This document shows, one piece after another, positions 1 through 54,663 of a DNA stretch of 64,000 nt. Origin of the DNA: Listeria monocytogenes (GTDB lineage: Bacteria; Bacillota; Bacilli; Lactobacillales; Listeriaceae); the NCBI RefSeq assembly GCF_900187225.1, contig NZ_LT906436.1:1860001-1924000 (forward strand), in the 5' to 3' direction. The stretch's first letter is position 1. Each line of letters starts with the position of its first letter. The notes under the pieces were generated by a model. That model saw only the letters and a program-made list of their open reading frames with translations, made no database searches and was not told the DNA's origin. The translations under genes were made by a program, and so were the position numbers.

Positions 1-1563
1 TCCTCGCATCCTAGCTATGCGCGCATTCAGTGGACAGATGATATTCCTGAAAACCCAGCAACACCGCCGATGTTTTGTATGTTACTGCGGAAATATTTAG
101 AAGGTGCAATTATTGAGTCGATTACGCAACTTCCTAATGAACGGATTTTACAATTTAGTATTCGTGGCAAAGATGACATCGGCGAAAACCGTTTTTGTGA
201 TTTATTTGTAGAAATTATGGGACGGCATAGTAATATCACCCTTGTTGACCGTGCGAAAAACGTGATTGTTGATTGTATTAAACACGTTTCCCCAGCGCAA
301 AATAGCTACCGAACACTTTTGCCGGGAGCGACGTATGTTTTACCACCAGCAACGGATAAACTGAATCCATTCGAGGTTACTTCGGAGCAGATTCTGGATA
401 GACTGGATTTCTCAGCAGGTCGAATTGATAAACAACTCGTTCAAAACTTTGCGGGATTCAGCCCTTTGCTTGCTCGTGAAATTGTGTTTCGCGCTGGAAA
501 CTTAACGGCAGATTCGCTTGTCGCTGCCTTTTTTGAAGTAATGGGACTTGTGAACGACCATCTAGGAAGTGCCGCTGTTCCAAACGAGTGGCGCATCCAA
601 AATAAAGAAGATTACTATTTCTTCTCGCTCCGTCATGTCGATGCGGAGATTACGGAATTCGCCAACTTGAGTACTCTTCTAGACCATTTTTATATCGGTA
701 AAGCGCGTCGTGATCGCGTTCACCAATTCGCGCATGATTTGGAAAAACTATTATCTAATGAACTGGCTCGCAGTAGACTGAAAATCGAAAAACTCGAAAA
801 TACTTTACTCGAAACAGAAAAAGCAGATGTTTATCGTATCCAAGGCGAACTTCTAACTGCCAACCTGCATTTAATGGAACGTGGGATGGAAGAAATTACC
901 GTCGAAAACTTTTACGATGATATGAAGAAAATGACGATTCCGCTTGATACTAGAAAAACACCATCCGCCAATGCCCAAAGTTACTTTAGCCGTTACCAAA
1001 AACTGCGTAATGCCGTCGAAGTAGTGAAAGAGCAAATCGCACTCACAAAAGAAGAAATCACTTACCTAGAATCTGTGGAATCCCAACTAGAAACGTCCGG
1101 CCCGCAAGATGTGGAAGAAATCCGCCAAGAACTCGCTGAACAAGGCTATCTTCGTTACAAACAGAAAAAAGGCAGCCGTAAAAAAGCGACTTTACCTGCT
1201 CCAGAAAAATATACTTCTTCGACCGGCTTAACGATTTTAGTCGGAAAAAATAATAAACAAAATGATTATTTAACGAATAAATTAGCTAGGAATAATGAAT
1301 ACTGGTTCCACGTGAAAGATTTGCCTGGTTCGCATGTGGTGATTCAATCGAATAATCCAGATGAGACATCGATTACAGAAGCCGCAATGATTGCCGCCTA
1401 TTATTCGAAAGCGCGCCTTTCAGCAACAGTCCCCGTCGACGGCACGCTTGTAAAACACGTGAAAAAACCAAATGGTGCCAAGCCTGGTTATGTCATTTAT
1501 GATAACCAAACGACTTATTTCGTTACACCTGATGAAAAGCTCGTTTTAGAGTTAAAAAATTAA
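1..1563 (+). CDS. rqcH: RqcH / FbpA (NFACT protein), 5'-truncated by window edge
   Basis: The reading frame is open from base 1, so the N-terminus lies outside the window and 520 residues are visible. It keeps the NFACT-N motif EIMGRHSNITLVD, a long charged coiled-coil middle (about residues 240-380 of the visible part) and a C-terminal NFACT-R RNA-binding region containing YWFHVKDLPGSHVVI. This is the family of B. subtilis YloA/RqcH and eukaryotic Rqc2. It binds split 50S subunits that carry peptidyl-tRNA and adds C-terminal alanine tails. In Listeria the same protein is named FbpA, a fibronectin-binding virulence factor. It ends at a UUCG-loop terminator. Family assignment is firm; which role dominates is not visible in sequence. 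Confidence 0.95.
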   Translation, partial: SSHPSYARIQWTDDIPENPATPPMFCMLLRKYLEGAIIESITQLPNERILQFSIRGKDDIGENRFCDLFVEIMGRHSNITLVDRAKNVIVDCIKHVSPAQNSYRTLLPGATYVLPPATDKLNPFEVTSEQILDRLDFSAGRIDKQLVQNFAGFSPLLAREIVFRAGNLTADSLVAAFFEVMGLVNDHLGSAAVPNEWRIQNKEDYYFFSLRHVDAEITEFANLSTLLDHFYIGKARRDRVHQFAHDLEKLLSNELARSRLKIEKLENTLLETEKADVYRIQGELLTANLHLMERGMEEITVENFYDDMKKMTIPLDTRKTPSANAQSYFSRYQKLRNAVEVVKEQIALTKEEITYLESVESQLETSGPQDVEEIRQELAEQGYLRYKQKKGSRKKATLPAPEKYTSSTGLTILVGKNNKQNDYLTNKLARNNEYWFHVKDLPGSHVVIQSNNPDETSITEAAMIAAYYSKARLSATVPVDGTLVKHVKKPNGAKPGYVIYDNQTTYFVTPDEKLVLELKN

Positions 1564-14026: not shown

Positions 14027-14035
14027 TGTTATACT
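14027..14035 (+). promoter_or_regulatory. Extended -10 promoter of the BrfA-like gene
   Basis: TGTTATACT is an extended -10 (TG-N-TATACT) about 25 nt before an AAGGAGG ribosome-binding site. It diverges from the pyr promoter, and the two promoter regions lie back to back. Confidence 0.6.
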
Positions 14036-14065
14036 ATTAATAATAAAATAAAGGAGGCCAAACAT

Positions 14066-14296
14066 ATGGCTATATCTAAAGCAAAAAAGAAACGTCAAAA
14101 GCTCATACGCGAAGGTCATTTGAATCCTGAAATCAAGCGTAGCCCCTTTGCACTCATCGATTTAAGTTCCAAACAAACGAAAACAAAAAAAGGATATCTT
14201 TATAGCAAGAAGCGAAAGAATCACCAAAAAGATGATTCTTTTTTTGTGTATTTTTTTAAGTTTTCACATTTTCTACATATTAACAGCTTGAAATAG
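14066..14296 (+). CDS. BrfA-like ribosome-rescue factor candidate; in-frame terminator gives a nonstop mRNA
   Basis: The frame encodes 76 residues from an ATG with a very strong AAAGGAGG ribosome-binding site. The N-terminus MAISKAKKKRQKLIREGHLN and the rest up to residue 57 are lysine/arginine-rich. A terminator hairpin at 14215-14241 with a 7-T run to 14245 lies inside the frame, before the stop at 14294. Most transcripts should therefore end around codon 59-60 without a stop. This layout matches B. subtilis brfA, and E. coli arfA in principle. Those encode small basic proteins that bring RF2 to ribosomes stalled on nonstop mRNA, and their own nonstop messages are tagged by tmRNA when trans-translation works. 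Homology to BrfA is inferred from size, composition, the SKAKKKRQ-type start and the architecture; no alignment was run. Confidence 0.65.
   Translation: MAISKAKKKRQKLIREGHLNPEIKRSPFALIDLSSKQTKTKKGYLYSKKRKNHQKDDSFFVYFFKFSHFLHINSLK
14215..14246 (+). terminator. Intrinsic terminator inside the BrfA-like ORF
   Basis: AAAGAATCA (14215-14223) pairs with TGATTCTTT (14233-14241), followed by T's through 14245. It falls on codons 50-60 of the ORF, about 50 nt before the in-frame stop codon. Confidence 0.85.
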
Positions 14297-14383: not shown

Positions 14384-15208
14384 ATGGGCATAATGAATAG
14401 CTTATTAAAGCAGAAAGAAATGGTCGTGAAAGATTGGCTAACATATTATGTATCTGTGGATGATCCATATATTTTCACATTAAAAAATGATCATCGTTTA
14501 ATGGATGAAACGGGCTTTGTTTTAGAAAATTTGTTTATTGGAATGACTGAAGATTTAGGAAAAATGAATGCTTTCGCGCGTGAGCTAGGGAAAGCTCAGT
14601 TTATAACTTCACTCGGAATTTCTCGTATTTTATTCCATATTCGCTTATTGGAAGAGTTTTTGCTCGATTATGCATCAGAAATCAAAACAAAATCTGCTAA
14701 TTATCGTGAATTATATTTATTTAGCATCAAGCTTCATCAGGTATTTAGTAGTTTTACACAAAACTTAATCGAAGGATACACCCATGCAAACGAACAAATG
14801 ATTGTGCAAAAAGAAAATCAAATTATTAAAGAATCAACCAAACTGATTTGGATTGCCGAAAATGTTTTTCTTTTACCTTTAATTGGAAAAATTACCGATG
14901 AGCGAGCAAAACAGATTACTGAAACAGCACTTTTTGAAGTTTGTGAGCAACCGGTGAATTATTTAATTATTGATTTATCTGGTGTGCAATTAGAGTCTCC
15001 TAACATCGGTAAGTACATTGAGTATTTCTTCTCATCGCTTAAATTAGTTGGCGTCACTCCAATTATTACAGGTATGCAACCTCAAACTGCCAAAGTGATG
15101 GTTCAAGCTAATCTAACTGAACAACACGGTATTAAAACATTTGCAACCTTACGCCAAGCAACAAAAACACTTATGAAAGAAAAAGAAGCAAGAAACGCCC
15201 ATAAATAG
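14384..15208 (+). CDS. RsbR-family stressosome protein with STAS domain
   Basis: 274 residues from the ATG at 14384, placed after AGAGGTG. The in-frame GTG at 14375 lies inside that ribosome-binding site. The N-terminal half (about 1-140) is a helical globin-like RsbR sensor domain. The C-terminal half (about 150-265) is a STAS domain containing LIIDLSGVQLESPNIG and VGVTPIITGMQPQTAKV. RsbR paralogues form the stressosome that releases RsbT to activate SigB. From memory this is one of the four L. monocytogenes RsbR1 paralogues (lmo1842). Set against RsbR from memory, the first phosphorylated Thr is a Ser (LES) and the second a Val (AKV). Confidence 0.85.
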   Translation: MGIMNSLLKQKEMVVKDWLTYYVSVDDPYIFTLKNDHRLMDETGFVLENLFIGMTEDLGKMNAFARELGKAQFITSLGISRILFHIRLLEEFLLDYASEIKTKSANYRELYLFSIKLHQVFSSFTQNLIEGYTHANEQMIVQKENQIIKESTKLIWIAENVFLLPLIGKITDERAKQITETALFEVCEQPVNYLIIDLSGVQLESPNIGKYIEYFFSSLKLVGVTPIITGMQPQTAKVMVQANLTEQHGIKTFATLRQATKTLMKEKEARNAHK

Positions 15209-15229
15209 GGTGTTCTTGCTTCTTTTTTT
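15184..15229 (+). terminator. Terminator of the RsbR paralogue
   Basis: A long stem built from GAAGCAAGAA...CCC and GGG...TTCTTGCTTC encloses the stop codon in its loop and ends in seven T's. It may also act for rluD from the other side. Confidence 0.8.

Positions 15230-53865: not shown

Positions 53866-54663
<798 letters not shown>

Follow-up and report, generated by a model that had tools for sequence, protein, structure and literature searches.

A brfA-like gene in Listeria monocytogenes: a probable backup ribosome-rescue factor with a conserved hairpin inside its reading frame

The stretch of DNA analysed here (the window) comprises 64,000 nucleotides of Listeria monocytogenes (NZ_LT906436.1, positions 1,860,001 to 1,924,000). 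Between the divergent pyrR and a gene for a STAS-domain protein, it carries a small open reading frame (ORF) whose features are collected in Table 1. Over 6183 bases around the gene, the window matches L. monocytogenes NCTC7974 at 100% identity; the ORF is annotated there as a 'hypothetical protein' (WP_003733083.1), the status that a first-pass annotation of the window, made from the DNA letters, had given for it. The gene is presumably lmo1841 in EGD-e. The same chromosomal region is also present in OR849059.1 ('Listeria phage', 2,650 bases, unannotated), NZ_LR134401.1 and NZ_CP030101.1 (both 'plasmid', 0.8 and 2.9 Mb); these three records may be mislabelled, as their size and gene content suggest chromosomal DNA.

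The ORF had been described as small and very basic, with a strong ribosome-binding site, and this description was borne out. Residues 1-58 contain 18 K+R versus 5 D+E, with a pI of 10.5, and a Shine–Dalgarno sequence precedes the start codon. Further upstream lies a candidate extended -10 promoter element, with no good -35 element at 17 nt and a TTGTCA 21 nt upstream. The residues encoded beyond the hairpin are hydrophobic, as had also been noticed, with a GRAVY of +0.69 for residues 59-76 versus -1.37 for residues 1-58; this 3' tail of the ORF is probably seldom transcribed.

Table 1. Features of the brfA-like gene, in window coordinates.
Feature	Position	Strand	Basis
Extended -10 promoter element TGTTATACT	14027..14035	+	Sequence; in 15/15 close Listeria loci; putative promoter function
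Shine–Dalgarno AAAGGAGG	14050..14057	+	8 nt before ATG; in 15/15 close Listeria loci
brfA-like ORF	14066..14296	+	ATG to TAG, 76 codons plus TAG; profile match to BrfA
ORF part expected on terminated non-stop mRNA, codons 1 to ~60, conserved basic protein	14066..14245	+	Conserved region of alignments A1 and A2; terminator position; predicted product
Putative terminator hairpin	core 14217-14239, extended form 14214-14242	+	Core: 8/9 pairs, one C.A mismatch, loop of 5; weak score; synonymous-site freeze
T-run of seven	14239..14245	+	Sequence
ORF 3' tail	14246..14296	+	Variable stop position among relatives
Second T-run	14251-14257	+	Sequence

The first-pass annotation had placed an intrinsic terminator, with a 9-bp stem and seven T's, inside the ORF and about 50 nt before its stop codon. 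The in-frame hairpin and the seven T's are indeed there, and an RNA ending at them would reach codon 59-60, with 48 nt left to the stop codon; the stem is slightly less regular than described. Its d'Aubenton-Carafa-like score is d=-14.2, while of the 30 intergenic window sites listed at d>=-20, 24 have scores from 1.5 to 31.1. A consensus terminator scan of the window did not list this hairpin. Judged as a terminator, the in-ORF hairpin of L. monocytogenes is weak, so the first-pass expectation that most transcripts end there may be too strong. The fold of the 46-nt segment has z=-2.87, with equal stability in 1/200 shuffles, and one out of 60 synonymous recodings reaches an equal score; in the close Listeria loci L006, L007, L010 and L015, 4 to 6 of 60 recodings match the native score. 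Other in-gene sense sites with d>=-20 amount to two per 58,851 coding bases of the window (one in an over-extended ORF being excluded). On the same strand, the next terminator-like site listed is found at 15185-15222, after the STAS gene; the gap from 14296 to the next gene holds no second listed site.

Elsewhere in the window, a strong hairpin and T-run (54472-54497, - strand, d=35.7) lie in front of a phosphoribosyltransferase-like gene, probably xpt; the structure looks like a leader terminator, perhaps of a purine riboswitch. This hairpin falls inside the minus-strand ORF 53866-54546 but was rejected as a further in-ORF case, as the start of that ORF looks over-extended.

Selection on the hairpin was assessed in 15 close Listeria loci, with the synonymous and non-synonymous differences and the per-codon listing based on 14 of them (L007 omitted). 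From codons 2-48 to codons 50-58, synonymous differences per site fall from 0.50 to 0.10, while non-synonymous ones rise from 0.038 to 0.110. Synonymous variation is found at none of the 10 degenerate codons in 51-60 versus 34/47 in 2-48 (Fisher p=2.6e-5, a value that ignores the kinship of the genomes; the counts do not change whether 14 or all 15 loci are used). The amino acid of loop codon 55 varies, paired codons and the first T-run are nearly fixed as nucleotides, and T-run codons 59-60 are invariant in 14/14 Listeria loci listed. Beyond the T-run the frame drifts, with the stop at nt 193, 217, 223, 229 or 262 of the ORF among the 15 loci. A frozen hairpin followed by a drifting tail is what one would predict for a hairpin that is important at the nucleic-acid level and for final residues that are not important. 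The substitution pattern thus points to selection of the Listeria hairpin as nucleic acid.

The relationship of the encoded protein was analysed with a profile (A1) of 26 sequences, comprising the window's protein, another 21 loci from Listeriaceae and four others (two records named Bacillus, one uncultured Bacillaceae and one Sporosarcina), with no B. subtilis-type member. Against the PDB, this profile matched chain y of 6SZS (B. subtilis YqkK/BrfA) over residues 1-66 with E=1.6e-11, the next match having an E-value of 0.24. The same chain came first of two matches in a single-sequence search (E=0.022); the second, MUM1 (E=0.63), was rejected as chance and is absent from the seven matches of profile A1. 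Ungapped, 19/54 residues are identical to B. subtilis BrfA, while scans of the protein against Pfam, NCBIfam and PHROGs gave no family match. In a wider alignment (A2) of 71 of the 77 listed references, in which the window's copy replaces L001 and L023, L081, L083, L087, L089 and L104 are omitted as misstarted or near-duplicate, Arg25 is the sole invariant column. The discovery paper (PMC6881298) describes this residue as shared by all BrfA sequences and has it stack on U1915. The proposal that the gene is the Listeria equivalent of brfA, for which an alignment with the B. subtilis protein had been suggested as a check, is supported by the profile match, by Arg25 and by the shared layout of the in-ORF terminator; on these sequence comparisons, the gene is placed with the BrfA family.

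Within Listeriaceae, a clear match (E<=8e-11) was found in 30/36 genomes: 23/25 in the window's genus, and 0/2 and 7/9 in the other two. A 31st match (E=0.367) was set aside as chance. The genomes with no clear match (G011, G023, G001, G002, G027 and G032) also show no sign of a separate ArfB, and these six may rely on tmRNA and RqcH alone. In a sample of the order, 28/395 genomes match, all of them Listeriaceae. In a sample of the class, profile A1 matched 71/398 genomes at E<=0.01, and profile A2, which includes homologues from the first class search, matched 87/398 at E<=0.001, 80 of those at E<=2e-10. The 80 class-level homologues belong to 13 families and 22 genera. Named relatives include Bacillus sinesaloumensis, B. 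timonensis and Sporosarcina globispora. Four weaker matches (L195-L198, families f14, f51 and f20; 21-28 bits) also have a hairpin and a T-rich tail inside the ORF and may represent another, divergent branch.

This distribution can be compared with the range in print. BrfA is confined to Bacillus according to the relevant passages of two reviews, and the discovery paper, where it treats distribution, reports it in a subset of Bacillaceae, mainly Bacillus (PMC6881298). A survey of 15,259 genomes gives BrfA in 5 (table) or 10 (text) Firmicutes (PMC11633108). Among the titles and abstract openings listed in a literature search, none assigned BrfA to Listeria. Given this narrow published range, the matches reported here amount to a large extension of it: the Listeria gene is of a known kind of system, and its wider range is what is new.

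The DNA of all 80 class-level homologues was inspected for a hairpin with a T-run that ends ahead of the stop codon, using a threshold of d>=-25 because d>0 misses the AT-rich Listeria hairpins. Such a site was present in 75/80. The stop lies inside the hairpin in three (L119, L120 and L174) and two have none (L115 and L118). As a background, such a site 10-115 nt before the stop was found in 1/195 other open frames of at least 150 codons at the same 84 loci, these frames not being filtered for real genes and the family and background search zones being similar, not identical; the count omits 17 frames that overlap the family ORF and hold five sites (6/212 with them). A second set, which overlaps the first, has 80 distinct loci; it omits L022 (start misplaced) and includes L041. 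Here the site is inside the ORF in 75, and 70 score above at least 59/60 synonymous recodings. L041 is a match to a Synergistaceae MAG over residues 7-34 (19 bits, no hairpin) and was rejected as probable chance. Different groups have different stem sequences, so it is the position of the feature that is kept, more than its sequence.

The three loci with the stop codon inside the hairpin belong to one genus (g158, family f11). In these BrfA relatives, a terminated mRNA would carry a stop, and the layout is a possible natural escape from tmRNA control. L115 (genome G612) has a B. subtilis-like core, its frame already stops at codon 55 and its hairpin is poor; it is possibly a decaying copy.

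Taken by itself, the score of the L. monocytogenes hairpin is unremarkable, and the two further in-gene sites of the window would fit a hairpin that arose by chance in a small ORF, whether spurious or ordinary. The probability of this reading is negligible, and it is refuted through conservation: codons 2-48 combine a low non-synonymous with a high synonymous difference, the synonymous sites of the hairpin are frozen and the gene is widely conserved. The hairpin is above chance because it recurs together with the T-run in 75/80 relatives with different stems, and because synonymous sites in the stem and the first T-run are frozen in Listeria.

An alternative is a conserved basic ribosome-binding protein with another role (for example hibernation or assembly), whose ordinary gene-end terminator overlaps the end of the ORF. 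The layout in genus g158 indicates that the overlap can shift, and a functional test in Listeria was not found in the literature searched. This reading is nevertheless very improbable: a terminator before the stop in nearly all homologues contrasts with its rarity in other long open frames, no second terminator-like site is listed between the ORF and the following gene, and the similarity is to BrfA, whose activity and structure are known.

The weakness of the Listeria hairpin as a terminator would favour another reading, in which the gene encodes a BrfA-family rescue factor and the hairpin, like that of E. coli arfA, serves mainly for cleavage by an RNase III-like ribonuclease instead of ending transcription. 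It is unlikely, since RNase III would find these stems short, most of the family has a T-run after the stem inside the ORF and the T-run codons of the Listeria loci are invariant. Termination in B. subtilis brfA has, moreover, been shown with a lacZ reporter, according to the corresponding passages of PMC6881298. The same source describes E. coli arfA mRNA as shortened through RNase III cleavage and/or termination, and PMC11633108 gives the brfA mRNA an RNase III site, citing the discovery paper, whose passages describe a terminator.

The partner genes of a BrfA-type system are present in the window's genome, which encodes tmRNA, SmpB, RqcH, RF1 and RF2. The NFACT_N domain of rqcH starts 141 bases before the window (window 1-1188), and rqcH ends about 12.5 kb from the brfA-like gene. 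Listeria RF2 matches the B. subtilis RF2 of 6SZS with 573.9 bits; SPF is kept, and the aligned stretches ELHPGAGG and WGSQIRSY are retained. By our reading of the residue numbering, these stretches would hold His133 and Trp318. ArfA (PF03889) gave no match in the protein or in the window's genome, with a positive E. coli control. No ArfB was found in that genome either, its two PF00472 (GGQ domain) matches being RF1 and RF2. Across Listeriaceae, 33/36 genomes have two PF00472 matches, and three have extra matches adjoining another. The GGQ motif is absent from all 71 aligned sequences of the family.

The RF2-facing segment of the protein differs from that of B. subtilis: residues 25-36 are RSPFALIDLSSK in Listeria versus RGSTPSFSTHGR in B. 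subtilis, and F31, H34, R36 and H50 of the latter are I, S, K and R in the former. In the published structure, as its contact descriptions have it, Phe31, His34 and Arg36 of B. subtilis BrfA contact RF2 Trp318 and A1492, and Lys49-His50 contact U534 (PMC6881298). Among the 71 sequences of A2, position 31 is F in 9 and I, L or A in 45, while H occupies position 34 in 13. Position 36 is R or K in 70/71, position 28 is F or Y in 60/71 and position 49 is K in 65/71. The window protein keeps K49 and has R at 50; K-H at 49-50 occurs in 34/71 sequences, three Listeria rows among them. From the alignment, the aromatic residue at 28 is a candidate that might substitute for F31. Several cores can be distinguished: Listeria and many other members have RSxFAxxD, the B. 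subtilis-like loci have SFSTHxR, and genera g83, g105 and part of g115 (family f12) have YxAxSQHxR. There may be more than one way of opening RF2 within the family.

Since this segment is changed, a BrfA relative that uses another release factor (RF1, or both) has to be considered, and F. tularensis ArfT, as described in PMC6881298, accepts either factor. We regard this as quite unlikely for the Listeria protein, given that its RF2 is very close to that of B. subtilis with the aligned His/Trp contact regions kept, that position 36 is almost always basic and that the aromatic at 28 might replace F31.

The best explanation rests on the homology, the in-ORF hairpin, the nucleotide selection and the presence of tmRNA, SmpB and RF2. 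By analogy with B. subtilis BrfA, from which in vivo termination, control by tmRNA, binding to the ribosome and the use of RF2 are read across, the Listeria gene is very probably brfA, encoding a tmRNA-repressed, RF2-dependent backup rescue factor. Since the layout of the gene is the same as in B. subtilis brfA, we infer the same circuit. RNA polymerase would often halt at the hairpin and T-run (codons 50-60), leaving an mRNA of roughly 200 nt with no stop codon. Ribosomes reaching the 3' end of this non-stop mRNA would be taken by tmRNA-SmpB, which would tag the product for degradation. Under overload or loss of trans-translation, a basic protein of roughly 60 residues would accumulate; its C-terminal tail would enter the empty mRNA channel of non-stop ribosomes, and the protein would recruit RF2, which would release the stuck peptide. 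The RF2 interface is the weak point of this mechanism.

Synthetic lethality with ssrA had been put forward as a test of this role. RqcH is present in Listeria, and the RQC pathway sustains B. subtilis when both systems are lost: in the account of PMC11633108, B. subtilis survives without trans-translation and BrfA through this pathway. Strict synthetic lethality of the Listeria gene with ssrA may therefore fail to hold.

Beyond the single gene, we lean slightly towards a broader picture. BrfA would be an old family of the class, and no late invention of the genus Bacillus, with at least three different RF-facing cores, each perhaps activating the release factor in its own way. Conservation of the in-frame terminator would have been stricter than that of the RF contacts, and the move of the stop into the hairpin in one genus could free its BrfA from tmRNA control.

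A function is thus suggested for a hypothetical gene of a food-borne pathogen. It also suggests a way for Listeria to live without trans-translation, a point of relevance to tmRNA-targeted drugs. Furthermore, the conserved in-ORF terminator offers a simple second criterion in the search for more rescue factors in bacteria thought to have none.

Among known systems, the closest is BrfA (YqkK) of B. subtilis, seen in 6SZS, which works with RF2 and not RF1 and whose level is repressed by trans-translation. The Listeria protein is colinear with it, small and basic, and the two have MAxSxAKKKR, R15, G17, R25, T38, K39, K41, K42, K49, K51 and N52 in common. Both genes carry a terminator inside the ORF about 60 codons in; for B. 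subtilis, the in-ORF terminator and a product of about 62 residues were established by experiment, as reported in the passages on expression of PMC6881298. The B. subtilis gene has 71 codons versus 76 in Listeria, the B. subtilis-like loci L111 and L112 have a stronger terminator, and the neighbour genes of L111, L112 and L115 differ from those of the Listeria loci. The setting is also shared, as tmRNA, SmpB, RqcH and a close RF2 are found in the Listeria genome too, with ArfA and ArfB not found there.

The other rescue factors are more distant. ArfA (YhdL, PF03889) of E. coli recruits RF2 and is made from a non-stop mRNA repressed by trans-translation (PMC6881298), a scheme that the Listeria gene would share; however, according to the comparison in that source, ArfA has no counterpart of BrfA's N-terminal helices. 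ArfT of F. tularensis, compared here by its description, is a small RF-dependent rescue factor, as is proposed for the Listeria protein, and uses RF1 or RF2 (PMC6881298). ArfB (YaeJ) provides backup rescue of non-stop ribosomes (PMC6881298), the role proposed here for the Listeria protein, but, unlike the latter, it has a GGQ domain of its own.
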